This document shows, in pieces, positions 48,414 to 63,862 of a stretch of 64,000 nt of DNA. The stretch lies in the NCBI GenBank assembly GCA_913054455.1, contig CAJXIL010000001.1:33387-97386 (forward strand), in the 5' to 3' direction. A program made the translations under genes and the position numbers. Each line of letters begins with the position of its first letter. The first letter of the stretch is position 1. The notes beneath the pieces are model-generated. The model did not search any database. It saw only the letters and a program-made list of their open reading frames with translations, and was not told where the DNA came from. The DNA is from an uncultured Roseobacter sp. GTDB taxonomy: Bacteria; Pseudomonadota; Alphaproteobacteria; Rhodobacterales; Rhodobacteraceae.

Positions 48414-49516
48414 TTTGATATCTCGCAAGTTCTGAGAGAAATTGTTTTACGATAGGTTTACGGTGTAGATCTTGAAAAAAGTATTTTTTTCAGTAGCTTA
48501 AAAATTTGTCACTCCTGTCAGGCCATGCCAAGGCAGCTCCGCCATCAGGTCGATGCACCCTTTCAGATATACCGCCTTGGTTGAGACATCTGCGCGTTTC
48601 TTGCCTTTAATCACCGATATCCCTCAAAGGCCTTACCTGGCTGGCCTCTGCATGTGCGAGGCCATAAACACCACCCACCACGTTCTCTAGTTCAGCATCT
48701 TGCGCGCATTGAGTGTTCGAATGTCAATTTGACCCAGGCCTTGCAAGGGACCTACTTGTGCATCTCCGTCGTTCATCCAGGACACAACATCAACCAAGGT
48801 CCCCGCCGCTCGCTGAATGGCTTCTCTCGTAGAGGTCCAAGTCAAACTCTTTTTCCGTTCTATTTTGGATCATGGGCACTCATCCGGGTCACGCTCCTCT
48901 TCGCAGTCTAAGTGGTTCTTGTGGGGACCCGCTGGATGCATGCGCCAGATTGACAGGTGTCTAATATGTTCGTCAGCCCTTTCAAGAGCCGCCATGAAAC
49001 GCTATATTGGAAGTGATGTTGCCAAGGATCACTGCGCTCTTTGCATGGCAAACACTACAGCTGGTTGTGCACTGTCCCGACCAGCATTTTATTGGCACGG
49101 GAACCTCAAAGAGTTGCTGCGCCCCGTGAAAGACAAATAGAAACTGCTGGTCCAGCGTTTTCATCCCCGTCGCCGCATGGGGCATGGGCCGACAACCCGC
49201 TGACCTTTGTTGAAGCCCACAAGACATTCGATCGGGTGGCCATTTATGGTCATGTGCCAACCCCAAGCCAGCTCTGACCTATGTGCGTCGCGCCCTTGCA
49301 AGGCCAACTCCATGTGGTCCAAACAGCAAATGCACGGTCGAAGGGTGTCCATTTTTTTTGTAGATTTGCGTCACCATGGCTCTTGGTATCCAAGGCGCCG
49401 CAAAGGTCAGCCAGCCTCGGGCTATCCGGGCTCAGGCGCGGTGCGAGATAGCAAGGCGTTCGTTGATCCGTACTGTCCCGACTTGCCCCGACCTATTGCC
49501 CGTTCGGCAAACCAAA
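48414..49516. other. 1.1-kb degenerate stretch with transposase debris
   Basis: Apart from the IS110 fragment, no gene is convincing in either strand. AT-rich sequence directly in front of the adhesin start (48420-48510) is the likely adhesin promoter region. Homopolymer runs near 49350 and overlapping short frames suggest old insertion and decay. Confidence 0.5.
48994..49140 (+). pseudogene. IS110-family transposase N-terminal remnant
   Basis: The frame MKRYIGSDVAKDHCALCMAN matches the start of IS110-type transposases (M-x-x-Y-I-G-x-D-V-S/A-K...), including the first catalytic Asp of the DEDD domain. It stops after 48 codons, and the remaining roughly 280 residues are absent. Confidence 0.6.
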
Positions 49517-50827
49517 TCAAAGCGATGGCAACCAAAGCGCCAATTGTGGAAAGACGATCAGCAATGCCACCAAGAACAGCGAGCAAAAGATAAACGGAAA
49601 AGCCGACGTGTAGATCTCGCGCATCGTTGTCCCTGCCGGCGCCACCCCTTTCATCACAAACAGCAATAATCCAAAGGGCGGTGTGGTGAAACTGATCTCC
49701 AAGGAAAGCAGCATGATCAGCGCGAACCAGATCGGGTCAAATCCAAGCGTTTGCGCAAGGGGAAAGAAGATCGGCACCGTCAGCAACATGATCGAGATCT
49801 GCTCCATGAACATCCCAAGAAGCAACAGTACGGCAAACATCACAAGCAGCATGGCCAAAGGCGCCAGGTCAAAGCTGGTTGCCCAGCTCACCAGCCCCCG
49901 AGACGCCCCAGAGAAGGCCAGAAGTTGGCTAAATGTGGCGGACCCAAAAACGATGAGATAGGCCATGAGCGTAACTTTGAGCGCACCGATGACGGACTTC
50001 TTCATAGCGTCCCACGTTAGGCAGCGAAAAACCGCGGCAAGGATCAATACGCCCAATGCGCCAAAGGCAGCAGCCTCGGAAGGTGTAACAAACCCCTGGA
50101 TCATCAAGGTGATGATAATGACCATGACACTCACCATGGGCACCACCTCGCGCAACAAGAGGACCAGCTTTACACGGAATGACATCGGCTCGACGTCGTA
50201 GGCAGGGGCAGCTGTCGGGTCGATCCGTGTCTGTAACCAGATCGTCGCAATGTAAAAGCCCGCAAGGATCAAACCCGGAATTACACCCGCGATAAGCAAC
50301 GCTGCTACGTCGATCTGTGCCAAGGTTGCCAACAAAACGGCCAATGCCGAAGGCGGAATGATGATCGCAAGACCGCCAGTGCCAAGAATGGGACCAATAC
50401 TCATGTGCGATTTATAGCCTCTGCGGCTCATTTCCGGGACCATGAGAGACCCCAGAAGTGCGGTTGAACCCATGGATGACCCCGAGAGCGTTGAAAAGGC
50501 CGTGCCACCCAGAACCGTGACATAGCTGAGCCGTCCCGGCAGGCGGCCAAGCAGCTTGTCGATCGCGGTAAACATGCGCCCGCCAAGCCCTGTGTGAAAG
50601 AAAATCTCACCCATCAGCAAGAATAACGGAATGGGCATCAGCGCGTATTTGGTGAGCGCCCCAAGACCGTTATTCAAGAGTTGCATCACCCCGCGCTCTC
50701 CGCCCATGAAGACCCAAGCGCCGATGATATTGGCGGCCAGAAAGGCCAACGCAATCGGCATTCCAACCGCCATGAGAAGCATAATCGTGCCAAGCAGCAG
50801 CGCAAGTGCCTCGTACCATTCCATCAT
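49517..50827 (-). CDS. dctM: TRAP transporter large permease
   Basis: The 436-residue DctM-type membrane protein has about twelve segments, with the family's FLLMGEIFFHTGLGGRMF, SSMGSTALLGSLMVPEM and IPPSALAVLLATLAQID motifs. It forms the sodium-driven channel of a TRAP importer with the small permease and DctP protein just upstream. It overlaps dctQ by 4 bases. It is the last gene of the minus arm of the GntR/LeuCD regulon, so the imported organic acid or related compound probably feeds that pathway. Confidence 0.94.
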   Translation of the reverse strand: MMEWYEALALLLGTIMLLMAVGMPIALAFLAANIIGAWVFMGGERGVMQLLNNGLGALTKYALMPIPLFLLMGEIFFHTGLGGRMFTAIDKLLGRLPGRLSYVTVLGGTAFSTLSGSSMGSTALLGSLMVPEMSRRGYKSHMSIGPILGTGGLAIIIPPSALAVLLATLAQIDVAALLIAGVIPGLILAGFYIATIWLQTRIDPTAAPAYDVEPMSFRVKLVLLLREVVPMVSVMVIIITLMIQGFVTPSEAAAFGALGVLILAAVFRCLTWDAMKKSVIGALKVTLMAYLIVFGSATFSQLLAFSGASRGLVSWATSFDLAPLAMLLVMFAVLLLLGMFMEQISIMLLTVPIFFPLAQTLGFDPIWFALIMLLSLEISFTTPPFGLLLFVMKGVAPAGTTMREIYTSAFPFIFCSLFLVALLIVFPQLALWLPSL

Positions 50828-51327
50828 TCATGTATCCCTGCTTCGCCGCTATGCATGAGCTCTTGGCCAAATACAAAGCGGGAAAATTCAACAGCCATCA
50901 TGCCAAATGAAAGCGGAAAGGCGATGGTCAACATCCAGCGCGGGAAGTAATAGGCACGAGTGTCAAAATCCCCCCGTGCGATATTGGTCATAACCAGCTC
51001 CGCGCCTTTCCATGTGAGGATCACGCAGACCAGCACGCAGGCGGCGGCCACGGCGCGGCTGAGAAGGCGGCGCAGGCCTGTAGGCAAAGCGGCCGTTAGC
51101 AGTTCGATATGCACATGGCCCTTTTCACGTACCAGCCAAGGCGCACCGAGCATCGTCATGTAAAGCAGGCCGTATTCGGCAGATGTAAACAGCCAGGCAA
51201 AGGGCTGAAGCCCAATGTTTCGCATCACCACGGAGATGATGACCGACACCATGATCCACACAAGCGTGAGGCCGGAAGTCCCTGCCATGCCATAGAGAAG
51301 GGCGTTGTAGGTCGTGTTGATCATCAA
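50824..51327 (-). CDS. dctQ: TRAP transporter small permease
   Basis: The 167-residue protein has four membrane helices and the DctQ features FTSAEYGLLYMTMLGAPWLVREKGHVHIELL. It pairs with the large permease, with which it overlaps by 4 bases, and follows the binding-protein gene by 56 bases. Confidence 0.92.
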   Translation of the reverse strand: MMINTTYNALLYGMAGTSGLTLVWIMVSVIISVVMRNIGLQPFAWLFTSAEYGLLYMTMLGAPWLVREKGHVHIELLTAALPTGLRRLLSRAVAAACVLVCVILTWKGAELVMTNIARGDFDTRAYYFPRWMLTIAFPLSFGMMAVEFSRFVFGQELMHSGEAGIHE

Positions 51328-51383
51328 AGATGGCTCCGAAAAAAGGCAGGCCAGCCCATACGAGGACAGGCCTGCGAAGGGGC

Positions 51384-52397
51384 TTAATTGGCCGCGTCGA
51401 GATCGTAGAAGAGCGAGATCAGCCGGTCATAGTTGTCTGTTCCACCGGGCTGGCCAGACATGACCTCTTTCATGCGCTCCCAGGTCTTTTCACGGGCAGC
51501 TGCCAGATAGTTGGCCTTCGCCTCACCTTCGAGCGAGACAACCTTCATACCCGCCGCCTCAAGCGCAGCGAAGTCTTCATCCCGCTTTGAACGCAATGCT
51601 TCAACGCTGTCTTTCTCGTGCTGGATCGCCACGTCCTGAAGCACCGTCCGCGCCTCATCCGAGAGCGAATTCCATTTTTCATTGTTCACGATCACACCGA
51701 GATCGGTCGAGAAGAAACACGGCTCAATCCGGTAGTTAAGGAACTCGTTCCACTTAAGATCAATAAGACCAATCTGGGTCCAGCCCGTCGCATCCACAAC
51801 GCCGCGCTGGAGTGCAGCGTAGACCTCACCAGTTGGCAGGTCGATCACCTGCGCACCGAGATAATTGGTGAAGAAGGCGTTATAGACATTGTTGCCGCGC
51901 AGCTTCAGGCCTTCGACTTCCAGGTTTCCATCAGCATCGAACTTTGGTTCGTCACGGGTCCAGAGGTTGTAGCAGACACCGCTGTCGAACCAGCCGAGGT
52001 ACTTAAGGCCCATCTTTTCTTGATGGATCTGGTCGATCAGGGCAATGCCACCATTGGCCCGCGTTTCAACGGCTGTAAGGTTAGAGGCAACCATGGCATC
52101 CTTTTCTGGTAGCGCGCCGCCATAAAACGACCCAGGAGTGTAAACCATATCCACGATACCATCGCGCACAGCGTCAGGCTGCTGGAACATGCCGATCGCC
52201 TCTGGGCCACCTCGCACATCGATCTGGATCACGCCTTTGCCTGCAGCGTTGACCTTATCGACAAAGCTCAGAAAGCTCTTTGTATAGATCAGTGTTTCGG
52301 GGAAAGCATGTACCGCCGAAATAGTCTCTTCTGCTTTGAGAGCCCCTGCAAAGAGCGTGGCCCCTGCAAGCAGGCTTCCTAGTAGTTTCATCTTCAT
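51384..52397 (-). CDS. dctP: TRAP transporter substrate-binding protein
   Basis: ATG 52397 behind GGAGGATTACAAG is the start. A Sec leader (MKMKLLGSLLAGATLFAGALKAEE) precedes a DctP-fold protein of some 315 residues; GLKYLGWFDSGVCYNLWTRDEP and GLKLRGNNVYNAFFTNYLGAQVIDLPTGEVYAALQRGVVDATGW hold the conserved ligand region. In many DctP proteins an Arg near the middle binds the substrate carboxylate; here the equivalent segment reads LRGNNVY, which may point to a ligand other than a simple dicarboxylate. It follows leuD-like gene by 84 bases. Confidence 0.9.
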   Translation of the reverse strand: MKMKLLGSLLAGATLFAGALKAEETISAVHAFPETLIYTKSFLSFVDKVNAAGKGVIQIDVRGGPEAIGMFQQPDAVRDGIVDMVYTPGSFYGGALPEKDAMVASNLTAVETRANGGIALIDQIHQEKMGLKYLGWFDSGVCYNLWTRDEPKFDADGNLEVEGLKLRGNNVYNAFFTNYLGAQVIDLPTGEVYAALQRGVVDATGWTQIGLIDLKWNEFLNYRIEPCFFSTDLGVIVNNEKWNSLSDEARTVLQDVAIQHEKDSVEALRSKRDEDFAALEAAGMKVVSLEGEAKANYLAAAREKTWERMKEVMSGQPGGTDNYDRLISLFYDLDAAN

Positions 52398-52481
52398 CTT
52401 GTAATCCTCCACTGGATTGAGGCCTGCGCCCCTTTGATTTGACCTTTTCAGGCCGTGGCTGCCGCGTTTAACGGTCGTTTT

Positions 52482-53093
52482 TCATTCTTTCGCAGTGGGC
52501 CACGCCCAGCCTGCAGTTTGGCTGCGGGTACGTTTAAACGCTGCGATGGCCCCGCCATGATTGCGCGTCAGATCAATATCGTCCCAGCCGTTGATCAGTT
52601 TCATGGCCCAGCTGTCATCAAGCACAAAGCCGATCTTGGCGGCTCCGACCGTGACAGTGCGGGTATCGATATCGATGATGACATCTTGCGGACCCTTTGC
52701 CAGTGACGCCTCCAGCGCAACGTAGCTCTCATCGTCGACCTTGGCTGGTAGCAGACTGTTGTTGACGGCGTTTGAGGCAAAGATGTCACCAAAGCTGGGG
52801 GCGATAACAGCACGGATACCGGCATCTACAAGCGCATAGACCGCCGCCTCACGCGAAGAACCGCTTCCGAAATTGCGCCCTGCAAGGATCACGCTAACCT
52901 CTGAGTGGGTATTCAGCGGGAAACCCGCACGCAGCTCTCCCGCCTCATCGCGGCGCATGTCGTGCAGTAGATAGGACCCGTAGCCCTCAGCGCGCGGCAC
53001 AGACATAAAGCGCGCCGGTATAAGCTGATCGGTATCAATATTCGCCACCGGCAGCCCCAGCACCGTGCCCCTATGCACCCGCCACCCAGCCAT
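52482..53093 (-). CDS. Aconitase-family hydro-lyase small subunit (LeuD-like)
   Basis: The 203-residue protein has the swivelling-domain motifs NIDTDQLIPARFM, LAGRNFGSGSSREAAVYAL and FGDIFASNAVNNSLLPA of the isopropylmalate/citraconate/dimethylmaleate hydratase small subunit. It overlaps the large-subunit gene by one base. There is no leuA or leuB nearby; the partners are a TRAP importer, a GntR regulator and, divergently, hydantoinase and lyase genes. A catabolic (de)hydratase acting on a substituted malate/maleate is therefore more likely than leucine synthesis. Confidence 0.88.
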   Translation of the reverse strand: MAGWRVHRGTVLGLPVANIDTDQLIPARFMSVPRAEGYGSYLLHDMRRDEAGELRAGFPLNTHSEVSVILAGRNFGSGSSREAAVYALVDAGIRAVIAPSFGDIFASNAVNNSLLPAKVDDESYVALEASLAKGPQDVIIDIDTRTVTVGAAKIGFVLDDSWAMKLINGWDDIDLTRNHGGAIAAFKRTRSQTAGWAWPTAKE

Positions 53094-54502
53094 CAGGCCC
53101 CCCTTCCCCTTAGGAGCGGGCGCACATCGGTGAGCGTTCCGGTCACGGCAGCCGCCGCGACCATGGCCGGGCTCATCAGATGGGTACGCGCGCCGCGCCC
53201 CTGACGACCCTTAAAATTGCGGTTCGTAGACGAGGCGCAGCGTTTGCCGTCGCCCACAAGATCGCCGTTCATGCCCACGCACATGGAACACCCGGAGCCA
53301 ACCCAGTCGAGGCCTGCCGCGGTAAAGACACGATCCAGCCCCTCGGCTTTGGCCTGCGCGTCGACCTGTGTCGAACCCGGTGAGATCATCCCGGAAACCT
53401 TGGCTTTGCGCCCCCGCAATACGGCAGCTGCGGCCCGCAAATCCTCGATCCGCCCGTTTGTGCAGGAGCCAATAAAGACCTGATCAACAGGCGTGCCTTC
53501 CAGCGTCTGCCCGGCTGTCAGCCCCATGTAATCAAGCGCAGCGCGTGCGGCTGCGGCCTTTTCAGGCGCCACATCGGCAGGGTCGGGGATGGCGGCGCTG
53601 ATCGGCAGCGCCTGTTCGGGGCTCGTGCCCCATGTGACAGTAGGGGAAATCTCGGCAGCTTTGATCTGCACCTCACGATCAAAACCTGCGCCTTCGTCGC
53701 TGGCGAGCGCTGTCCAATCCGCGCAGGCCGCCTGCCAGTCCGCAGCTTTGGGCGCATAACTGCGCCCTTCGAGATAGGTAAATGTTGTTTCGTCTGGGGC
53801 CACCATGCCCAAACGCGCTCCACCTTCAATCGATAGGTTACAGAGGGTCATGCGGCCCTCCATCGACAAGGACTCAATAGTGCTGCCAGCATATTCGACA
53901 GCATGACCCTGGGCGCCATCGGTGCCCAACTTTGCAATCCAGTAAAGCGCGATATCCTTAGCCGAGACCCCCGGTCCAAGAGTGCCGTCAACAGTGATAC
54001 GCATGGATTTTGGCTTGCGCTGCCAGACCGTTTGTGTTGCCAGAACATGGGCCACCTCGGTCGCGCCAATCCCAAAAGCCAGCGCGCCAAAGGCCCCATG
54101 GGTAGAGGTATGGCTATCACCGCAGTTTATCAGCAGCCCAGGCAAAGTCAGACCCTGTTCGGGCCCCACTACATGCACGATGCCCTGCTGGGGATCGTCA
54201 AGATCAAAAAGCTGCAGTCCATGCGCTGTCGCATTGCTGCGTAGGGTATCGATCATTCGTGCAATACGCGGATCAGCGATCTGTGACCGGCCCCGCGTGG
54301 GCGCATAATGATCAACAACAGCAAAGGTAAGCGCCGGTTCAGCCACGGACAGGCTGCGCTCCCTGATCTTGGCAAATGCGTGATGTGACCCTTCGTGCAC
54401 AAGATGCCGATCAACCCAAAGCAGCGAAACGCCATCATCGCGCCGAAGCACCTCATGCGCGGCCCAAAGCTTGTCGAGCATGGTCTGCGGAACCCCCATC
54501 AA
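53093..54502 (-). CDS. Aconitase-family hydro-lyase large subunit (LeuC-like)
   Basis: The 469-residue protein has the 4Fe-4S ligands in FIGSCTNGRIEDLRAAA and GSGCSMCVGMNGD and the substrate loop DSHTSTHGAFGALAFGIG. It is the bacterial LeuC size. It overlaps the GntR gene by 4 bases upstream and leuD-like gene by one base downstream. Members of this group hydrate maleate, citraconate or dimethylmaleate as well as isopropylmaleate. Given the divergent lyase gene, a hydration step producing a (alkyl)malate is proposed; this is inference. Confidence 0.9.
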   Translation of the reverse strand: MMGVPQTMLDKLWAAHEVLRRDDGVSLLWVDRHLVHEGSHHAFAKIRERSLSVAEPALTFAVVDHYAPTRGRSQIADPRIARMIDTLRSNATAHGLQLFDLDDPQQGIVHVVGPEQGLTLPGLLINCGDSHTSTHGAFGALAFGIGATEVAHVLATQTVWQRKPKSMRITVDGTLGPGVSAKDIALYWIAKLGTDGAQGHAVEYAGSTIESLSMEGRMTLCNLSIEGGARLGMVAPDETTFTYLEGRSYAPKAADWQAACADWTALASDEGAGFDREVQIKAAEISPTVTWGTSPEQALPISAAIPDPADVAPEKAAAARAALDYMGLTAGQTLEGTPVDQVFIGSCTNGRIEDLRAAAAVLRGRKAKVSGMISPGSTQVDAQAKAEGLDRVFTAAGLDWVGSGCSMCVGMNGDLVGDGKRCASSTNRNFKGRQGRGARTHLMSPAMVAAAAVTGTLTDVRPLLRGRGA

Positions 54503-55314
54503 CCCTCCCCTTCGCTCTGACCGATCGCAGGTTCCCAGTGACGCGTTGCACCCTGGCCAACGCGCGTCAGCGGCATTTCCAGCCGGAACATATCCGGACG
54601 GTAAAGCCCCGAGAGGTATTCCACTCCATTCCCCTCGACGTCGCGCACAACGCGACGTAGCGACAACAACGCCGATCCCTCGGCCACGCCCAGGGCCTCT
54701 GCCACATCGGGACCAGCAAGCGTCGCACTCACGGATTGATGCGCTTCTTCGATTAGCACGCCACTGCGCTCCAACAGCTTGAACAGGGGCGTGGTCGCGA
54801 GATCATTCTCGGAATAGTTCTGCGCAATCTGGGCAGGAACGTATGTTGTGAGATGGGAAAACGGCACATCCCCTGTCAGACGCACCCGCGTGGCGATCTG
54901 GACCTTGGTTTCGTCTCCAAGACGCATCGCAGAGGCGACGAAATCAGGTGCACGACCATACGAAAACGACAAAAGCCGCGCAGTCGTTTGCTGACCCATC
55001 TCGACCAACTGCGGCATGAGCGTGTTGAAATCCATCGCGGCAGCCTGGCCGCTGGCGGCTCGTGCGCGCACCTTCGTGCCGCTTCCTGCGCGGCGTTCAA
55101 TTAGTCCACCTTGGGACAGGGCATCAAGCGCGCGGCGCACGGTGACACGGCTCACCCCAAAGGTTTCGGCCAGCTTTTGTTCCCCCGGCAAAGTCTGCCC
55201 CTCGCGCAGATCGCCACCGGTGATCTGATCGCGCAAAGAAAGGTAAACGCGCCGCGCCTTTGTCCCCTCTGGCAGTATTTGAACAGCTTCCAACCGCACC
55301 TGTGATTCCCCCAT
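54499..55314 (-). CDS. GntR-family regulator, HutC/UTRA subgroup
   Basis: The 271-residue protein has an N-terminal HTH (LPGEQKLAETFGVSRVTVRRALDALSQGGLIERRAGSGTKV) and a C-terminal UTRA ligand domain (DVPFSHLTTYVPAQIAQNYSE, YLSGLYRPDMFRLEMPLTR). UTRA regulators usually bind a small catabolite related to the pathway they control. It is first in the minus arm and divergent from the tautomerase/hydantoinase arm, across 150 bases with a clear palindrome, so it likely controls both. Confidence 0.92.
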   Translation of the reverse strand: MGESQVRLEAVQILPEGTKARRVYLSLRDQITGGDLREGQTLPGEQKLAETFGVSRVTVRRALDALSQGGLIERRAGSGTKVRARAASGQAAAMDFNTLMPQLVEMGQQTTARLLSFSYGRAPDFVASAMRLGDETKVQIATRVRLTGDVPFSHLTTYVPAQIAQNYSENDLATTPLFKLLERSGVLIEEAHQSVSATLAGPDVAEALGVAEGSALLSLRRVVRDVEGNGVEYLSGLYRPDMFRLEMPLTRVGQGATRHWEPAIGQSEGEG

Positions 55315-55394
55315 GTTTCGAAGACGAGGGTAGATAGGTTTCCTTCAAAATCAAGTATTAGTATTTCATATATTCAAAAATTTTGTCTGGTAAG

Positions 55395-55409
55395 ATACAA
55401 TATTTGTAT
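55395..55409. promoter_or_regulatory. Candidate GntR/UTRA operator
   Basis: ATACAA-TAT-TTGTAT is a perfect palindrome in the AT-rich gap between the gntR and tautomerase-fusion genes, the position expected for control of both arms. Confidence 0.6.
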
Positions 55410-55464
55410 TACAGATAGTACTGATTGAAGTCAGTTCTGTTTGGATAGAGGGGGTAGGAGCGCA

Positions 55465-56031
55465 ATGCCGATCGTGGAATTACATGTTCTTGAAGGCTAC
55501 AATTCCCAGGAAAAACAACGCCTAGGCGCAGCTTTGACGGACGCGGTACGATTCGTCGTGCCCGCCGCACCAGAGCTTGTGACGGTGATGATCCATGATG
55601 TGTCAGCAGACAATTACCACCTTGGCCGCAGCCAGCGAAGCCTTGCACCCGCGCGGCCGGACCCGACGCAGATCGTGAAAGACTACCTTGCCGCGATGGA
55701 AACCCGCCAACTGGACGCAGCAAGCGCAATACTGGGCGATGGCTTTACCATGATCTTTCCCGGCACAGCGCCGATGTGCACACTTCAAGAACTGATTGAA
55801 TGGGCGAAACCGCGCTACAAGTTTGTCACCAAGACCTACGAGGGTTTTGACGCAATGCAGGGCACAGGTGACGCCGTCGTGGTCTATTGTCGGGGCACGC
55901 TGCAGGGTGAATATCACGATGGTAGCACCTTTGAAGACATCCGTTTTGTTGATCGCTTCGAGATCACGGGCGGCAAGATCACCAAACAGGACGTATGGAA
56001 CGACATGGCCGAAGTGAGGGCAAATGTATGA
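55465..56031 (+). CDS. Tautomerase (4-OT-like) fused to an NTF2/SnoaL-like domain
   Basis: ATG 55465 behind TAGGAGCGCA is chosen because it places Pro directly after Met (MPIVELHVLEGYN), the catalytic N-terminal proline of 4-oxalocrotonate tautomerases. Residues 1-60 form that domain (ELVTVMIHDVSADNYHLG). After a short linker, residues about 70-188 form an NTF2-like domain (PTQIVKDYLAAMETRQLDAASAIL, FEDIRFVDRFEITGGKITKQDVW) of the kind that binds or isomerises small molecules. It is the first gene of the plus arm and overlaps hyuB by 4 bases. The fusion suggests two consecutive enol/keto or ring steps. Confidence 0.82.
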   Translation: MPIVELHVLEGYNSQEKQRLGAALTDAVRFVVPAAPELVTVMIHDVSADNYHLGRSQRSLAPARPDPTQIVKDYLAAMETRQLDAASAILGDGFTMIFPGTAPMCTLQELIEWAKPRYKFVTKTYEGFDAMQGTGDAVVVYCRGTLQGEYHDGSTFEDIRFVDRFEITGGKITKQDVWNDMAEVRANV

Positions 56032-57722
56032 GCGAAATTGATCCAATCACCCTTTCTGTCCTTGCGGGCCGCATGGAGCAGATCGCAGATGAGATGGACG
56101 CCACGCTGTTTCGCGCGGCCTTCAACCCAATCATCGCCGAGGCGCATGATGCGAGCCATGGGCTTTATCACGCCGTGTCGGGGGATACGTTGGTGCAAGG
56201 CAAGTCAGGCCTACCGATTTTCGTGGGCGTCATGTCTTTTGCAGTGAAAGCCGTGATCGAAAAGGCCGCCAGGGATGGCGATCTCGAAAATGGTGACATT
56301 TACATCTTCAACGACGCTCATATTGGCGGAACCCATTTGTCGGACATGCGCCTCGTGCGGCCCTACTTCCGCGATGGGAACCTGTTTTGCTATCTGGCCT
56401 CGGTTGGGCATTGGCATGACGTGGGCGGCGCCGTGCCGGGAAATTATAATCCTGCGGCGACGGATGTTTTCCAAGAGGCCTTCAACTTACCGCCCGTGAA
56501 ACTTGCCCGCAAAGGGAAGATCAACCAGGACATCATCGACATTCTGATGCGCAACACGCGCCTGCCGCAATCGGCCATGGGTGATCTCAACGGTCAGCTT
56601 GGTGCGCTGGACCTGGGCGTCAGGCGCATGGACGAGCTTCTGGATGAATACGGCGCTGAGACGATCTCCTCTGCCCTTGAGGCGCTTGGCCATCGCGCCG
56701 AGACCTTGATGCGGTCAGAAATAACCGATCTGCCCGATGGCCGCTGGGAGGCCGAGGATTACCTGGACAACGACGGCATCACCGATGAGCCGCTGAAGAT
56801 CAGCATCGCACTGGAGGTCAAGAACGATGAAATGACACTTGATTTCACCGGGTCCTCACCGCAGTGCGCAGGCCCTGTAAATATCGCCCTGCCAACGACT
56901 GTTGCCACCGCCTATGTGGCCATCAAACACGTCTTTCCCGCACTGTCGGCCAATGCTGGTGTCATGCGGCCCATTGATGTGATCGTACCCGAGGGCAGCC
57001 TTTTGGCCGCGCAGTTTCCGGCACCGACGGGCGGCTATACCGAAACCATTCTGCGGATGATCGACGTGGTGTTTTCTGCCTTTGCGCAGGCCTCTCCCGA
57101 CCGCATCGTCGCCAACGCCTATGGCACCATCAATGCGCTCTCCATCGCGGGCAAGCGCAGCAACGGCCAGCCCTGGGTCATGTTTTCCTTCTATGGCGGC
57201 GGCCACGGCGGGTCGGTTGACTCCGACGGGCTCAATCATGGCAATGCACCCATTTCAACCGCCACGATCCCGCCAATGGAGATCCTGGAAGCGGCCTACC
57301 CGGTCATGTTCCGCAAATGGGCCCTGCGGCCCGACAGCGCTGGTGCCGGTACCCACCGCGGCGGTCTTGGCGCTGTCTACGAGATCGAAGTCTTGGAGGA
57401 AAACGGCGCCGAGGCCTTCCTCTTCGGCGAACGCGGACGCTTTGCTCCCAAGGGGATTGTCGAAGGCGGCGACGCGGCAATGAACGCGTTTCAATATGAA
57501 CAGGATGACGGCTGGCACAGCCCGCCACTGGCCTCCAAGATGCGCGGTATCAAACTCAAGACGGGGCAGGCCGTGCGGCTTGAAACGCCAGGCGGTGGCG
57601 GCTACGGCGCGGCCTCCGAGCGAAATCCCAAAGCCGTTGCCCGCGATGTAGCGCGCGGCCTGGTAAGCGACGACCATGCAGATGCCGCATATGGCACGCA
57701 ATGGCGAGAGGACACAGCATGA
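56028..57722 (+). CDS. hyuB: Hydantoinase B/oxoprolinase-family subunit
   Basis: ATG 56028 overlaps the upstream stop. The 564-residue protein shows the HyuB hallmarks DPITLSVLAGRMEQIADEMDATLFRAAFNPIIAEAHDAS, GDIYIFNDAHIGGTHLSDM, DFTGSSPQCAGPVN and the C-terminal ETPGGGGYG. With HyuA it forms an ATP-dependent enzyme of the N-methylhydantoinase/5-oxoprolinase/acetone carboxylase superfamily, which opens cyclic amides or imides or carboxylates ketones. It overlaps hyuA by 4 bases. The substrate is not fixed by sequence; context favours a cyclic imide or lactam. Confidence 0.92.
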   Translation: MSEIDPITLSVLAGRMEQIADEMDATLFRAAFNPIIAEAHDASHGLYHAVSGDTLVQGKSGLPIFVGVMSFAVKAVIEKAARDGDLENGDIYIFNDAHIGGTHLSDMRLVRPYFRDGNLFCYLASVGHWHDVGGAVPGNYNPAATDVFQEAFNLPPVKLARKGKINQDIIDILMRNTRLPQSAMGDLNGQLGALDLGVRRMDELLDEYGAETISSALEALGHRAETLMRSEITDLPDGRWEAEDYLDNDGITDEPLKISIALEVKNDEMTLDFTGSSPQCAGPVNIALPTTVATAYVAIKHVFPALSANAGVMRPIDVIVPEGSLLAAQFPAPTGGYTETILRMIDVVFSAFAQASPDRIVANAYGTINALSIAGKRSNGQPWVMFSFYGGGHGGSVDSDGLNHGNAPISTATIPPMEILEAAYPVMFRKWALRPDSAGAGTHRGGLGAVYEIEVLEENGAEAFLFGERGRFAPKGIVEGGDAAMNAFQYEQDDGWHSPPLASKMRGIKLKTGQAVRLETPGGGGYGAASERNPKAVARDVARGLVSDDHADAAYGTQWREDTA

Positions 57723-59782
57723 CCAACCGAATGATCGGTGTCGACGTGGGCGGCACATTTACAGATGTCTTCGTTCTGAATGAGGCCGAAGGCACCGCTA
57801 GCGTTGCCAAGGTTCCAACAACACGACCCGACCAATCAGGCGGTTTCCTCGATGGGATCGGGCGCGAAGTTCAGGATCTGTCCGAGATCTCCGTGGTGGT
57901 GCATGGCACAACAGCAGGCACGAACGCGCTCCTGGAACGCAAGGGCGCAAAAACCGGAGTAATCTGTACAGAAGGGCTGCGCGATGTATTGGAAATGCGG
58001 CGACGCGACAGGCCACGCACATGGGGGCTGCGCGGGGAATTCGAACCGGTGGTCGACCGCCGCAACCGCCTCGAAGTGCCGGAACGCACCCTGGCCGATG
58101 GCACCGTGCGCACCCCCGTAGACCTTGATGCCGTGCGCGCCGCCGCCAAAATGCTGCAGGCACAAGGCTGTGAAGGGGTGGCGATCCTATTTGCCAATTC
58201 CTACGCCAACACCACCAACGAAGACGCCGCCGTCGCGGTACTGCGCGAGGTCTGGCATAATGAACATGTCTCGGCCTCGTCGGAGATCCTGCCAGAGATC
58301 CGCGAATTCGAACGGTTCTCGACCACCGCTCTCAACGCCTATCTGCAGCCAGAGGTCTCTGGCTATCTGGGGCGGCTAGAAAACGCGCTCAAGGTCGGCG
58401 GGTTTGATGGCGAATTTATGATCGTGCAATCCAATGGCGGTGTTATGGCGGTGGATACCGCCTGTCGCTTGCCCGTGCGCACGGCGCTTTCCGGTCCTGC
58501 GGCAGGAGTCATTGCGGCCGGCTATATCGCTGGTTCGGCTGGGTTTGAGAATGTCATTACGGGCGATATGGGCGGGACGAGTTTTGATGTGTCTCTGATT
58601 GCCGAAGGACAATCCATGTTGTCGCCGCAAACCTCGATTGATTTTGGTATGGTTGTGCGCAATCCGATGATCGAAATCACAACCATCGGCGCAGGTGGTG
58701 GATCCATCGCCTGGGTCGACAAGGGCGGATTGCTCAATATCGGCCCCGAAAGTGCAGGCAGCAACCCGGGCCCGGTGGCTTATGGTCTTGGCAACACCCG
58801 CCCGACAGTGACAGACGCCAATGTGGTCCTGGGCCGGATCGATCCCGACAACCCCATCGGCGGCAAGCTTGACCGGCTGGATGTGGACGCAGCAAGCCGG
58901 GCGATTGATGACAATGTCGGCGGCCCGCTGGGTCTGTCCACGGTTGAGGCCGCAGAAGCGATCCTGAAGGTCGCCAATAGCCGCATGGCAGGGGCGATCC
59001 GCCTTGTGAGCATTGAACGTGGCTTTGATCCCAAGCGCTTTGCCTTTATGCCTTTCGGTGGCGGTGGCGCGCTTCATACAGGTGCGATGCTGGCGGAAGT
59101 TGGCATATCGCGGGCTATTGTGCCGCGTTATCCAGGGGTCACATCGGCCATGGGCTGTGTCATCGCCGATATGCGCCAGGATTTCGTGCAGACAATCAAC
59201 TCGCTTGTAGACACCCTTGATGAGACAGCACTGGGTGCGTTCATGCAGGATCACTGCGATCAGGGCATGGCACTGCTTGACGCCGCCCGGACCAAATTTG
59301 AAGCGCGTGAGCTGAGTTTTGAGCTCGACATGGCCTATATCGGGCAGACGCATACCGTATCTGTTCCTCTGGCTGTGGACACGGTGGGTGGCCGGACCAC
59401 CGCGCCAACGCGTGCCCAGATCGAAGAGGCCTTTGATACCGCCTACCGCGCAACTTTTGGCAGGCTCTTGCAAAATGGAGTGCGGCGTATCTTGAACCTG
59501 CGCAGCGCCGTGACCGGAAAGCGCCCAAAATTCGATCTGAGCGCTCTGGCCCCCTCTGGCGAAGGTTCGGCCGAGCCCATCGACCAGAGGCAGGTCCATT
59601 TTGCCAAAAGCTGGCGTTCAACGGCGATCTATGATCGACTTGCCCTGCCGGCAGGAACGGTCATCAAAGGCCCCGCGATCCTCACGCAACCTGACACCAC
59701 CGTGCTCATCGAACCCAACTTGCAGGGTCGTGTGGATCAGTTTGGCAATACAATTATCGAACCCTTGGAGGAGGCATCATGA
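57719..59782 (+). CDS. hyuA: Hydantoinase A/oxoprolinase-family subunit
   Basis: ATG 57719 gives 687 residues. The N-terminal nucleotide-binding part has GVDVGGTFTDVFVLN and VVVHGTTAGTNALLER, the middle GDMGGTSFDVSLI and ITTIGAGGGSIAWVDKGGLLNIGPESAGSNPGP, and the C terminus FMPFGGGGALHTGAMLAEVGI. These are standard HyuA/acetone carboxylase-beta features for ATP binding and phosphorylation of the substrate carbonyl. It partners with HyuB. Its stop overlaps the isochorismatase-like gene by 4 bases. Confidence 0.93.
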   Translation: MTNRMIGVDVGGTFTDVFVLNEAEGTASVAKVPTTRPDQSGGFLDGIGREVQDLSEISVVVHGTTAGTNALLERKGAKTGVICTEGLRDVLEMRRRDRPRTWGLRGEFEPVVDRRNRLEVPERTLADGTVRTPVDLDAVRAAAKMLQAQGCEGVAILFANSYANTTNEDAAVAVLREVWHNEHVSASSEILPEIREFERFSTTALNAYLQPEVSGYLGRLENALKVGGFDGEFMIVQSNGGVMAVDTACRLPVRTALSGPAAGVIAAGYIAGSAGFENVITGDMGGTSFDVSLIAEGQSMLSPQTSIDFGMVVRNPMIEITTIGAGGGSIAWVDKGGLLNIGPESAGSNPGPVAYGLGNTRPTVTDANVVLGRIDPDNPIGGKLDRLDVDAASRAIDDNVGGPLGLSTVEAAEAILKVANSRMAGAIRLVSIERGFDPKRFAFMPFGGGGALHTGAMLAEVGISRAIVPRYPGVTSAMGCVIADMRQDFVQTINSLVDTLDETALGAFMQDHCDQGMALLDAARTKFEARELSFELDMAYIGQTHTVSVPLAVDTVGGRTTAPTRAQIEEAFDTAYRATFGRLLQNGVRRILNLRSAVTGKRPKFDLSALAPSGEGSAEPIDQRQVHFAKSWRSTAIYDRLALPAGTVIKGPAILTQPDTTVLIEPNLQGRVDQFGNTIIEPLEEAS

Positions 59783-60399
59783 GCAATCCAGCCACATGGG
59801 ACATTTCGCGCACCGCGCTTCTGACGATTGATTTGCAAAACGATTTCATCCACCCAGAGGGAGCCTATGGACGCGCGGGCCAGAGAGCGGACAGCATTGC
59901 CGCCTTACCGGACCGCATCGCGCCGCTGGCTCGAGCGCTTCAGGCCAAGGGGGGGCGCTACTTCTCTGCGCAGTTCACGCTGGTGCCAGACAAGGATGGT
60001 GAGCCACTTATCGCGCCACACCTGAAGGAGCTGCGCCCGTTCCTCGGTAAGCGCGATTTCGCGCCGGGAAGCTTTGGCCATAGCCTTGTGGACCTGCTCC
60101 AGCCCGCTGATTTCGTCATTGAAAAAGTGGCCTATTCAGCCTTCTACCAGACCCGATTGGAATACCTGATGCGCGCAGTTGGGATCGACCATCTAATCGT
60201 GGGCGGCATCGTCACCAATGGCGGCGTAGCGTCTACTTTGCGCGATGCACATCTGCGCAACATTGAAACCGTGACGCTGACAGATGGTTGCGCAGCCTTC
60301 AAAGCAGAGGTGCACGACGCTACGCTCCTGTCGCTAGGCACTGTGACCCACCAGATGAGCTGTGCCGAGGCACTGACCTTGATCGAGGGCACGTCATGA
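59779..60399 (+). CDS. Isochorismatase-fold hydrolase lacking the catalytic Cys
   Basis: The 206-residue protein has the fold's Asp18 (LLTIDLQNDF) and Lys115 (IEKVAYSAFYQT), but the nucleophile position reads IVTNGGVASTLRDA, with Gly148 where amidases such as nicotinamidase and maleamate amidase have Cys (TNVCVxST). Loss of Cys argues against amide hydrolysis by the usual covalent route and recalls isochorismate-type hydrolases that do not use it. It is embedded in the operon by 4-base overlaps on both sides, so it must serve the same pathway. The reaction is undetermined. Confidence 0.8.
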   Translation: MSNPATWDISRTALLTIDLQNDFIHPEGAYGRAGQRADSIAALPDRIAPLARALQAKGGRYFSAQFTLVPDKDGEPLIAPHLKELRPFLGKRDFAPGSFGHSLVDLLQPADFVIEKVAYSAFYQTRLEYLMRAVGIDHLIVGGIVTNGGVASTLRDAHLRNIETVTLTDGCAAFKAEVHDATLLSLGTVTHQMSCAEALTLIEGTS

Positions 60400-61262
60400 G
60401 CCTGCGCGCACGCCTTCAGAACAAGGAAATCCTCGTCGCGCCCGGAGTTTATGACGGGCTAACCGCATCGCTCGCCGAGGCGGCAGGGTTCGAGGCGCTC
60501 TACCTCAGCGGCGCGGCCGTCGCCTACACGCGGTTGGGGCGGCCAGACATCGGCCTGACCACGGCCTCGGAGATGGCGGATACGATGACGCTCATCGCTG
60601 ATCGCACAGCCCTGCCGGTGATCATCGATGCCGACACAGGTTTTGGCAATGCGCTCAACGCACAGCGCACCATGCGGCTCTATGAGCGGGCCGGGGCCTC
60701 GGCCCTGCAGATGGAGGATCAGACATATCCGAAACGCTGCGGGCACCTGGCGGATAAATCCCTCATTCCGGCCTCGGAAATGGTCGGCAAGATTGCCGCG
60801 ATGGCCGATGCGCGGGCCTCTGATGAGACTCTGATCATTGCCCGCACCGATGCGATCGCCGTTGAAGGTTTTTCTGCCGCCTCAGACCGCGCAGAGGCCT
60901 ATCTGGAAGCAGGCGCAGATGTGCTCTTTATCGAAGCACCGCAGAGCCGTGAACAGCTTGAAACCATTGCCAAGCGCTTTGCCGGGCATGTGCCGCTTCT
61001 GGCCAATATGGTCGAAGGCGGTGCCACTCCGATTACCGGCGCGGACGACCTTGAGGAGCTCGGCTTCTCCATCGTCATCTTCCCCGGCGGTATCGTCCGT
61101 GCGCTGGCCCGCACAGCGCAGGACTATTACCAAAGTCTGGCCAGCAACGGTTCGAACAAACCCTTTGCCGACCGGATGTTTGATTTCGGCGGCTTAAACG
61201 GCGTGATCGGGACAGATGAAATGCTGAAAAACGGAGCGCGATATGACGACTCCGAGGGTTGA
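60396..61262 (+). CDS. Isocitrate lyase/PEP mutase-family C-C lyase
   Basis: ATG 60396 overlaps the upstream stop, giving 288 residues; the track adds 36 codons. The superfamily signature KRCGHL is present, with IIDADTGFGNALNAQRTMR and LIIARTDAIAVEGF as metal and substrate segments. Members of this size cleave 2-methylisocitrate (PrpB), 2,3-dimethylmalate or oxaloacetate into two carboxylic acids. With a LeuCD-like hydratase in the divergent arm, a 2,3-dimethylmalate-lyase-type step (giving pyruvate and propionate) or a close relative is plausible. It overlaps the FAD oxidoreductase gene by 20 bases. Confidence 0.88.
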   Translation: MSLRARLQNKEILVAPGVYDGLTASLAEAAGFEALYLSGAAVAYTRLGRPDIGLTTASEMADTMTLIADRTALPVIIDADTGFGNALNAQRTMRLYERAGASALQMEDQTYPKRCGHLADKSLIPASEMVGKIAAMADARASDETLIIARTDAIAVEGFSAASDRAEAYLEAGADVLFIEAPQSREQLETIAKRFAGHVPLLANMVEGGATPITGADDLEELGFSIVIFPGGIVRALARTAQDYYQSLASNGSNKPFADRMFDFGGLNGVIGTDEMLKNGARYDDSEG

Positions 61263-62622
61263 AACACCGCCTCGAAGCTTTGACCTAGAGATAGAGGTCC
61301 TGATCATCGGCGCTGGAGCTTGTGGTCTAATTGCGGCCCTCTCAGCTCATGAGTCTGGCCAAGACGTTCTGGTGATTGAGGCCGATGCGCTCCCTTCTGG
61401 GTCCACCGCTCTGTCGGCGGGGCTGATTCCAGCGGCAGGAACGAAGTTGCAACAGGCGGCAGGCATAGCTGACAGCCCAGCCCAGTTCGCCACAGATATT
61501 CAGGCCAAGGCACACGGTGAAAACGATCAGGGGCTTGTGGATCTTATGGCGCAGAATGCCGCCGATGTAATCGACTGGCTGACCGAGACGCATGGGCTAC
61601 CGTTCTCGGTTGTCGATGATTTTGACTATCCCGGCCATTCCAGCCGTCGGATGCATGGGCTACCAACGCGGGCGGGGTCAGAACTGATCGACGCGCTGCG
61701 CAGCACCGCCGAGCATGCAGGCATCGACATCATCTGCGAACGCCGCGCCGAGACGCTGTATTTTGCCGACGGGTCGGTGCATGGCATTGCCGCGCGTCGC
61801 CCCGATGGTGGGGTGGAAACCATTGGCTGCAAGCGCTTGATCCTTGCCTGCAACGGCTTTGGCGGCAACCGCGCGCTGGTGGCCCAGCACATGCCCGAAA
61901 TCGAAAGCGGCCTTTGGTTTGGCCATGATGGAAACCGTGGCGAGGCCGTGCTTTGGGCCGATGAGATTGGCGCGGCAACCCAGCATCTGGGCGCCTATCA
62001 GGGCCACGGCAATGTGGCCCATCCCCACGGCATCCTCATCACTTGGGCCACGATCACCGAAGGTGGCGTTCAGGTGAACAGCGCAGGAAAGCGTTTCTGG
62101 AACGAGGCACAGGGCTATTCCGAGGCCGCCCGCGCTGTGCTGTCGCAACCGGGTGGCGAGGCCTTTGCCATCTTTGATACGCGGATCGCAGATATCGCGC
62201 GGCAGTTCGAAGATTTCAAACGCGCCGAGGCCCAGGGCGCGGTCAAAATCGCCACCACGCTGGACGAACTGGCCAAGGCCCTTGGCCTGCCCGCCAACCC
62301 GCTCAAGGAAACCATAGACACTCTTCCAACCGGTGGCACGGATGGCTTTGGCCGCAGCTTCGGAACAACACGCCTTGCGCCTCCCTATTGTGGCGTGCGG
62401 GTCACCGGCGCGCTGTTTCACACGCAAGGGGGGCTGCGGATTGACAACTCAGCGCGGGTTATTGCCTGCAATGGCTTGCCGATCCCCAATCTATTCGCTG
62501 GCGGCGGCGCAGCCTGTGGTGTGTCTGGCCGTGGTGACAGTGGATATCTGTCAGGAAACGGTCTGCTGGCCGCAGCGGTATTGGGGCGTATCGCTGGAAA
62601 TGGAAATGTGAGCGATAAGTGA
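61243..62622 (+). CDS. FAD-dependent fumarate reductase/3-ketosteroid-dehydrogenase-like oxidoreductase
   Basis: The 459-residue protein starts inside the lyase gene. FAD-binding VLIIGAGACGLIAALSAHESGQDVLVIEAD is followed by the family's SGSTALSAGLIPAAGTK, the capping domain, and C-terminal YCGVRVTGALFHTQGGLRIDN and GRGDSGYLSGNGLLAAAVLG. This is the soluble succinate dehydrogenase/fumarate reductase-type group that adds or removes hydrogens across a C=C next to a carboxyl. It would introduce or saturate a double bond in the pathway substrate. It is the last gene of the plus arm. Confidence 0.88.
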   Translation: MTTPRVETPPRSFDLEIEVLIIGAGACGLIAALSAHESGQDVLVIEADALPSGSTALSAGLIPAAGTKLQQAAGIADSPAQFATDIQAKAHGENDQGLVDLMAQNAADVIDWLTETHGLPFSVVDDFDYPGHSSRRMHGLPTRAGSELIDALRSTAEHAGIDIICERRAETLYFADGSVHGIAARRPDGGVETIGCKRLILACNGFGGNRALVAQHMPEIESGLWFGHDGNRGEAVLWADEIGAATQHLGAYQGHGNVAHPHGILITWATITEGGVQVNSAGKRFWNEAQGYSEAARAVLSQPGGEAFAIFDTRIADIARQFEDFKRAEAQGAVKIATTLDELAKALGLPANPLKETIDTLPTGGTDGFGRSFGTTRLAPPYCGVRVTGALFHTQGGLRIDNSARVIACNGLPIPNLFAGGGAACGVSGRGDSGYLSGNGLLAAAVLGRIAGNGNVSDK

Positions 62623-62830: not shown

Positions 62831-63862
62831 ATGACCGGAATGAAAATAAGAAACATGGAAGAATTCGCTTCCGTCAGTGGTATTTCTCGGCCAACACTTT
62901 CTAAGTTTTTCAACGACCCCAACAGCGTGCGGGCCTCCACGCGGAAGCGTATTGAGGCCGCGTTGGAACGATATGATTATCAGCCCAACCTATATGCGGT
63001 AAACCAAAACCGGCGCCTAACCAAAAACATCGGCGTGGTGGTTCCTTATCTGGCAGATCCGTTCTTTGCAAAAATTGCCCGTACAATCGAAGAACACATC
63101 ATTGAGACCGGGTTCCGTCCGGTGCTGCTGGGGTCCCACGGCAGCCCCTCGATGGAAATCGCCAATCTCGAGAACCTGCGCAGCCTGAAACCCGCGGGTG
63201 TTCTGTTGGCGCCGCTTGGACGGGCCTCAGACCATGCCAAGATTGAGGCCTTCTGCCAAGATGTTCCAACTGTACTGTTTGACGCCAATATCGACGGGAT
63301 TGGTGAAGCCTTTGTAGGATCAAACAATGATCAAAGCATCCGTCTAATTGTAGACTACCTTTGTCGAACCGGGGAACCGCCCTGCTTATTCGAGATGAGG
63401 TCGCCCACCAACCCAAACGCATTCAAACGCCGCAACGCATATATCGCAGCGATGAACAAACTAGGACATAGCCCGAACCTAATTCAGGTAGAGGGCCAAG
63501 GTTGGGAATTTGAAGAGATCGGCTTTCGCGAAGGCCTGCGGCTTTTGCGGGATCGAAACCTGCCAACAAGCACCATTTTGTGTAGCAACGACCGCCTAGC
63601 CATTGGCCTTTTGTCAGCGGCCTTTGAAACAGGGTTGCGGGTTGGCATTGGCGAAGGATGCAATTTGCGGGTGGCTGGGCATGACGATCACCCGTTCTCC
63701 AAATACACCTGTCCAACCCTGACGACGATTTCACAGGATTATGAATCGATCGCCAAGAAAAGTGCCGCAGTTTTGTTGGAACGCATAGAGGCTGAAGAAA
63801 CCGCCGATTCGCGCCAGGAAACACTGTTTGATGGACGTTTGATCATCAGATCCTCTGCATAA
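62831..63862 (+). CDS. LacI-family transcriptional regulator
   Basis: The 343-residue protein has the LacI HTH (MEEFASVSGISRPTLSKFFNDPNSVRASTRKRIEAALERYDYQPN) and a ribose-binding-type effector domain (IGVVVPYLADPFFAKIARTIEEHI, ILCSNDRLAIGLLSAAFETG, LRVAGHDDHPFSKYTCPTLTTI). An ATG three codons downstream is also possible. It is separated from the FAD gene by about 208 bases and followed by an operator and a new operon start, so it probably governs the genes to the right of the window, likely for a sugar or sugar-like compound. Confidence 0.93.
   Translation: MTGMKIRNMEEFASVSGISRPTLSKFFNDPNSVRASTRKRIEAALERYDYQPNLYAVNQNRRLTKNIGVVVPYLADPFFAKIARTIEEHIIETGFRPVLLGSHGSPSMEIANLENLRSLKPAGVLLAPLGRASDHAKIEAFCQDVPTVLFDANIDGIGEAFVGSNNDQSIRLIVDYLCRTGEPPCLFEMRSPTNPNAFKRRNAYIAAMNKLGHSPNLIQVEGQGWEFEEIGFREGLRLLRDRNLPTSTILCSNDRLAIGLLSAAFETGLRVGIGEGCNLRVAGHDDHPFSKYTCPTLTTISQDYESIAKKSAAVLLERIEAEETADSRQETLFDGRLIIRSSA

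Follow-up and report, generated by a model that had tools for sequence, protein, structure and literature searches.

A conserved twelve-gene cluster of the Roseobacter group with a predicted role in the catabolism of a cyclic imide or lactam

Gene content of the cluster

The window analysed here, a stretch of 64,000 nucleotides from an uncultured Roseobacter sp., carries a cluster of 12 open reading frames (ORFs), arranged as two divergent arms around a single GntR/UTRA regulator (Table 1). The source assembly has 3.88 Mb and is 86% complete, and its closest relatives place the genome in the Roseobacter group. Adjacent genes share a few bases at their ends, the exceptions being the surroundings of DctP and the divergent promoter, and both arms are tightly packed. 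An earlier sequence-only reading of this DNA had described a UTRA regulator between two arms of mostly overlapping genes, and every gene that it named is present at the position it gave. Two gene starts deserve mention. That of the tautomerase fusion was corrected to 55465, where the protein begins with Met-Pro, and the true start of the lyase is likely the ATG at 60396, which overlaps the stop codon of the isochorismatase gene, rather than the TTG at 60288.

Table 1. Genes and intergenic elements of the cluster, with positions in the window.
Feature	Position	Strand	Basis
DctM, TRAP transporter large permease	49517..50827	-	Pfam DctM, E 5.5e-75; NCBIfam dctM above cut-off
DctQ, TRAP transporter small permease	50824..51327	-	Pfam DctQ, E 2.4e-23
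DctP, TRAP solute-binding protein	51384..52412	-	Pfam DctP; nearest solved chain 4mnc, 177 bits
LeuD-type hydratase small subunit	52482..53093	-	leuD TIGR00171, 135.8 bits (cut-off 116)
LeuC-type hydratase large subunit	53093..54502	-	leuC TIGR00170, 626.8 bits (cut-off 560)
GntR/UTRA transcriptional regulator	54499..55314	-	Pfam GntR, UTRA
Second conserved element AAGTATTAGTATT, adjoining the regulator start	55353..55365		kept in most rows of the intergenic alignment; putative function
Probable operator GTATTACAGATAGTAC (consensus GTATTA-N4-TAATAC)	55406..55421		intergenic alignment, 22 loci
Tautomerase (Met-Pro start) fused to SnoaL/NTF2-like domain	55465..56031	+	Pfam
HyuB, hydantoinase B/oxoprolinase subunit	56028..57722	+	Pfam, E 1.8e-166
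HyuA, ATP-dependent hydantoinase A/oxoprolinase subunit	57701..59782	+	Pfam; glycine-rich motifs
Isochorismatase-fold protein without nucleophilic Cys (TNGGVAST)	59779..60399	+	alignment
C-C lyase (KRCGH), isocitrate lyase (ICL)/phosphoenolpyruvate (PEP) mutase family	60396..61262	+	PrpB model, 299.8 bits (cut-off 354.4)
FAD_binding_2 flavoprotein, active site not that of fumarate reductase	61243..62622	+	residue comparison

Conservation in the Roseobacter group

Used as query against public genomes, the tautomerase fusion returned 26 loci. All 12 genes occur in identical order and orientation at 19 of these, all from the Roseobacter group; four others are cut by contig ends, one is rearranged and two have only the tautomerase/NTF2 part. 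Protein identities across the loci range from about 55 to 97%, and in Sulfitobacter the cluster is plasmid-borne. Because gene order and orientation are kept at 19 other loci, the linkage is far beyond chance. The proposal of the sequence-only reading that the genes form a co-regulated catabolic unit is supported.

The region between the arms contains a palindrome, GTATTA-N4-TAATAC, which is exact in 16 of the 22 aligned loci, where it precedes the tautomerase start by 34 to 38 bases, and has no occurrence elsewhere in the 165 loci compared. The copy in the window has one mismatch and is located 59 bases before the tautomerase start; 0.02 such sites would be expected by chance. We infer that both arms are under control of the one GntR/UTRA regulator via this palindrome.

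Some loci show peculiarities. In the rearranged one (L033, 7948-20552), the arms are not separated by a UTRA gene, and past the flavoprotein end there is a DctP-like gene. L027 and L028, two of the four loci cut by contig ends, are apparently one contig that occurs in metagenome-assembled genomes labelled Roseobacter and Flavobacteriia, so that one of the two bins is probably mislabelled or contaminated. In a genome of the same genus (G001; locus L059, 4335-11606), the ORFs for HyuB, LeuC and the isochorismatase-fold protein are fragmented, which suggests decay or sequencing errors.

Hydratase and carbon-carbon lyase

The hydratase scores above the leuC and leuD cut-offs (Table 1) and below those of the HacA/DmdB type (LEUD_arch, which covers LeuD/DmdB, 75.5 versus 109 bits; hacA_fam, 331.9 versus 385.7 bits). 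The label of dimethylmaleate hydratase, to which the sequence-only reading had likened it, is rejected on these scores. In a sister cluster from Paraburkholderia, the slot is held by a HacA/DmdB-type enzyme that does exceed the cut-off of the family including DmdB. The hydratase position is thus occupied by two non-orthologous types of the aconitase superfamily. The LeuCD of the cluster is not the only copy in the window genome, as a second one, of housekeeping type, is encoded on contig C182. At least two LeuC-like genes were found in all 12 genomes checked, and in the tree the cluster LeuC forms a clade that is split from housekeeping LeuC at 100/100.

The lyase carries the catalytic motif KRCGH of the Cys type, which is invariant in 33 homologues. 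PrpB is its nearest relative in the PDB, but it stays below the cut-off of the PrpB equivalog and a role as PrpB in the methylcitrate cycle was therefore rejected. A stretch NMVE-GATP is shared with 2,3-dimethylmalate lyase. In contrast, R235 is found in methylisocitrate lyases as well, and dimethylmalate lyase has Gly at this position.

One explanation would be that assorted metabolic genes adjoin by chance, with LeuCD acting in leucine synthesis and the lyase belonging to the methylcitrate cycle. This could be argued from the leuC and leuD scores and from the proximity of the lyase to PrpB. However, the second LeuCD, the multiple LeuC-like genes, the separate clade, the lyase score and a linkage that is constant across families make it highly improbable. 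A hydratase followed by a Cys-type C-C lyase fits hydration and then cleavage of a substituted maleate.

Two known systems are similar. The anaerobic fermentation of nicotinate ends with DmdAB and 2,3-dimethylmalate lyase, where a hydratase of the aconitase superfamily likewise precedes an ICL/PEP-mutase family lyase that acts on a substituted malate. However, the hydratase of the window is of the LeuC/LeuD rather than the HacA/DmdB type, it is preceded by HyuAB and the isochorismatase-fold protein, and there are no nicotinate genes nearby. The methylcitrate pathway (AcnB/PrpD, PrpB) would be an analogue in which a methylated unsaturated tricarboxylate is hydrated and cleaved to pyruvate and a dicarboxylate. 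It differs in that the lyase of the window does not reach the PrpB cut-off, that prpC was not found in the cluster and that the hydratase is LeuCD.

Predicted ring-opening and accessory enzymes

Hydantoinase A and B domains are present in HyuAB, and the glycine motifs of the ATP site, e.g. GVDVGGTFTD and GDMGGTSFD, are retained in 36 HyuA homologues. N-methylhydantoinase and 5-oxoprolinase are the nearest solved structures for HyuA. In its two-subunit fold and in these motifs the pair resembles the ATP-dependent lactamases caprolactamase (CapAB), 5-oxoprolinase and N-methylhydantoinase. It is nevertheless distinct from caprolactamase, scoring about half of the equivalog cut-off (501 and 318 bits versus 1000), and forms a separate group: HyuB identity is at least 60% within the set and falls sharply to about 42% outside. 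Among the nearest HyuAB outside the family is a pair, about 41% identical, that adjoins 6-hydroxynicotinate reductase in a nicotinate-type cluster, where a lactam must be opened. The claim that HyuAB opens cyclic amides is in line with its relatives, which act on lactams.

The isochorismatase-fold protein shares its fold and the catalytic Asp and Lys (Asp18 and Lys116) with the amidohydrolases RutB and biuret hydrolase. Unlike these, it has an invariant Gly at the position of the Cys nucleophile (38 of 38 aligned members), and thus it is not a standard Cys amidase. This loss of a catalytic residue is masked by current annotation: proteins of the group are called 'cysteine hydrolase' in public records although the Cys is missing (L050, 14510-15112; L048, 16567-17181; L049, 16738-17346). 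Half-amides of dialkylmaleic acids are easily hydrolysed when the neighbouring carboxylate attacks, and an enzyme might dispense with the Cys if it contributes acid catalysis and geometry alone. Alternatively, the Cys-free step could be the hydrolysis of an enamine or enol ether, as in true isochorismatase.

The latter would suit a different substrate, an enamide-type lactam or another N-heterocycle, which HyuAB would open, with the isochorismatase-fold protein hydrolysing an enamine or enol ether and LeuCD and the lyase processing the acid. The loss of the Cys indeed resembles true isochorismatases (PhzD, EntB) more than amidases, and the HyuAB pair from the nicotinate-type cluster is among the nearest outside relatives. 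However, ring opening would leave an aldehyde or ketone for which the minimal Paraburkholderia cluster has no dehydrogenase, whereas an imide directly yields the cis-dicarboxylate needed by LeuCD. We regard a substrate of this kind as unlikely.

In the tautomerase fusion, Pro2 is present in 35 of 37 aligned sequences. The flavoprotein is by sequence nearest to flavocytochrome c, with which it shares the overall flavin adenine dinucleotide domain, but the label fumarate reductase-like proved misleading. Only the first His of the six catalytic residues of fumarate reductase (His, Glu, Arg, Arg, His, Arg) is kept; the others are W, I, Y, F and Y, and both substrate-binding Arg positions are now Tyr. 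A role as fumarate reductase was rejected because these residues are lost, and so was one as tricarballylate dehydrogenase, TcuA, for which the model gives 164 of 369 bits. The Tyr pattern resembles that of ketosteroid dehydrogenases.

Related clusters with other importers

Related clusters in which the importer differs are spread through the Alphaproteobacteria and extend to some Burkholderiales. About thirty further loci have the same core with variations, the enzymes most commonly shared being HyuAB, the isochorismatase-fold protein, an aconitase-type hydratase and the C-C lyase. In plasmid records, the relatives of the lyase, of HyuB and of the isochorismatase-fold protein come largely from one set of organisms. 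An ABC transporter serves as importer in Roseomonas, Azospirillum and Neorhizobium, whose clusters may also contain genes for MmgE/PrpD or Asp/Glu racemase. The Paraburkholderia cluster consists only of regulator, importer, LeuC/LeuD-family hydratase, HyuAB, isochorismatase and lyase. In our genome samples, which are subsets with many draft assemblies, the isochorismatase-fold protein is encoded in 26 of 385 alphaproteobacterial genomes and is rare in the other class sampled, that of G784 (1 of 369).

A plasmid of Variovorax sp. RA8 (L053, 9315-19289) carries a related lyase and LeuCD together with a luciferase-like monooxygenase, flavin reductase and RibBA. Its isochorismatase-fold protein is a different one that likewise has no Cys at that site (STAWAV). 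Here another substrate is possibly fed into the same hydratase-lyase pair.

A possible link to glutarate

In Tistrella, and also at L121, L129 and L130, the operon order is GntR, HyuB, HyuA, isochorismatase, acyl-coenzyme A (CoA) dehydrogenase, CoA-transferase, LeuC and LeuD. Over 388 residues, the Tistrella dehydrogenase shares 72% identity with human glutaryl-CoA dehydrogenase, and it retains the stretch with the functional residues Glu87, Arg94 and Ser95. For the CoA-transferase the best model is succinate-glutarate CoA-transferase, although with 533 bits it does not reach the cut-off of 750; its nearest solved relatives include human succinate-hydroxymethylglutarate CoA-transferase. On a sister plasmid of the same strain, pTM1 (L047, 2370-17638), lyase, tautomerase and flavoprotein genes occur without HyuAB; two MmgE/PrpD and two Asp/Glu-racemase genes lie alongside them. 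In a second lineage (G306), transferase and lyase are found in one cluster, while in G326 the transferase/dehydrogenase pair stands by itself. As the CoA-transferase family is common alone (81 of the 385 genomes), only its position inside these clusters counts as a clue, and this suggests glutarate as a product of the pathway.

The sequence-only reading had proposed a simple maleimide or succinimide with alkyl groups (methyl-, dimethyl- or ethylmethylmaleimide), degraded via alkylmaleate and alkylmalate to pyruvate and acetate, propionate or butyrate. The gene set of Paraburkholderia would be enough for this, and the NMVE-GATP stretch of the lyase is as in 2,3-dimethylmalate lyase. On the other hand, the Tistrella module indicates a dicarboxylate product, R235 is as in methylisocitrate lyases, and an importer of the DctP type suggests a carboxylated ligand; the PDB relatives of DctP yield no safe ligand assignment. 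On balance we doubt this route, and a dicarboxylate seems a more probable end product than acids of the propionate type.

A proposed catabolic pathway

We see about an even chance that the cluster is a single regulon for import of a cyclic imide or lactam, opening by HyuAB, hydration and C-C cleavage, with hematinic acid as the best candidate substrate. The sequences themselves show the gene content, its joint conservation, the conserved operator-like site, the enzyme families and the state of the active sites; substrate, step order and products are predicted from these. The GntR/UTRA protein would control the regulon at the inter-arm palindrome. A carboxylated cyclic imide or lactam would be taken up by the TRAP importer and its ring opened by HyuAB at the expense of ATP. 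The Cys-less isochorismatase-fold protein may then aid nitrogen release, perhaps by acid catalysis helped by the neighbouring carboxylate from ring opening, to give a cis-vicinal unsaturated di- or tricarboxylate. Addition of water by LeuCD would yield a substituted malate, and a retro-aldol cut by the lyase a 2-oxo acid (pyruvate) and a carboxylate. Accessory steps by the tautomerase and the flavoprotein might feed ring variants, with exocyclic double bonds or saturated rings, into the route.

With glutarate as suggested product, conversion of hematinic acid to pyruvate and glutarate becomes a candidate route. Hematinic acid is 3-(2-carboxyethyl)-4-methylmaleimide, whose two ring substituents would yield glutarate and pyruvate. 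It is singled out because it would fit the joint presence of an imide-opening enzyme, a hydratase of maleate type, a lyase resembling methylisocitrate lyase and an outlet for glutarate. The best specific candidate would proceed from hematinic acid via methyl-cis-homoaconitate and methylhomoisocitrate. The wider proposal, that hematinic acid and related maleimides are fully catabolised by bacteria through HyuAB and a Cys-free, substrate-assisted isochorismatase-fold enzyme to methyl-cis-homoaconitate, homoaconitase-like hydration and methylisocitrate lyase-like cleavage to pyruvate and glutarate, is a tentative one that we hold with clearly less confidence than the regulon itself.

The regulon and its proposed imide or lactam substrate are favoured by the 12-gene linkage, the palindrome, the recurring core, the two hydratase types, the KRCGH motif, the second LeuCD, the lactam-linked relatives of HyuAB and the glutarate module. 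Several points weigh against them. The clue to glutarate comes from two lineages, and the glutarate module is absent from the cluster of the window. The nitrogen-releasing step would have to proceed without the standard catalytic residue, the lyase combines features of dimethylmalate lyase and methylisocitrate lyase, and tautomerase, flavoprotein, MmgE/PrpD and racemase are not accounted for in detail.

Ring opening, hydration and C-C cleavage, as put forward in the sequence-only reading, are retained as the best description of the route, while the readings of the isochorismatase fold, the flavoprotein and LeuCD had to be corrected. Its suggestion of tetrapyrrole breakdown products as a source is strengthened by the Tistrella module, and the substrate itself is a prediction. 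Two other routes were rejected: one from citrazinate or isonicotinate via cis-aconitamide, for which ordinary aconitase and ICL would suffice and nothing was found in the open-access literature, and one from hydantoins to amino acids, which leaves no work for LeuCD and the lyase.

Formation and breakdown of chlorophyll are on the order of 10^12 kg per year, and hematinic acid, a reported product of its oxidation, has together with maleimides been reported from leaves and lake sediments (PMC7318184). Our searches of the open-access literature (dimethylmaleate, maleimide, maleate hydratase, hematinic acid, nicotinate HyuAB, HyuAB/LeuCD clusters) found no description of the cluster and no bacterial route that uses chlorophyll-fragment maleimides or hematinic acid. 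The families of its parts are known, but this literature yielded neither their combination and its broad conservation nor the Cys-free member. If correct, the proposal provides a pathway for the monopyrrolic compounds in which the oxidation of chlorophyll, bilins and heme ends. Even with another ring as substrate, the cluster would represent a conserved, uncharacterised catabolic module of marine and soil proteobacteria.

Flanking genes

The cluster is preceded in the window by a gene for a large HYR/Ig-like repeat protein (45588-48428) and followed by one for a LacI-family regulator (62831-63862). Neither is a constant neighbour in other genomes.

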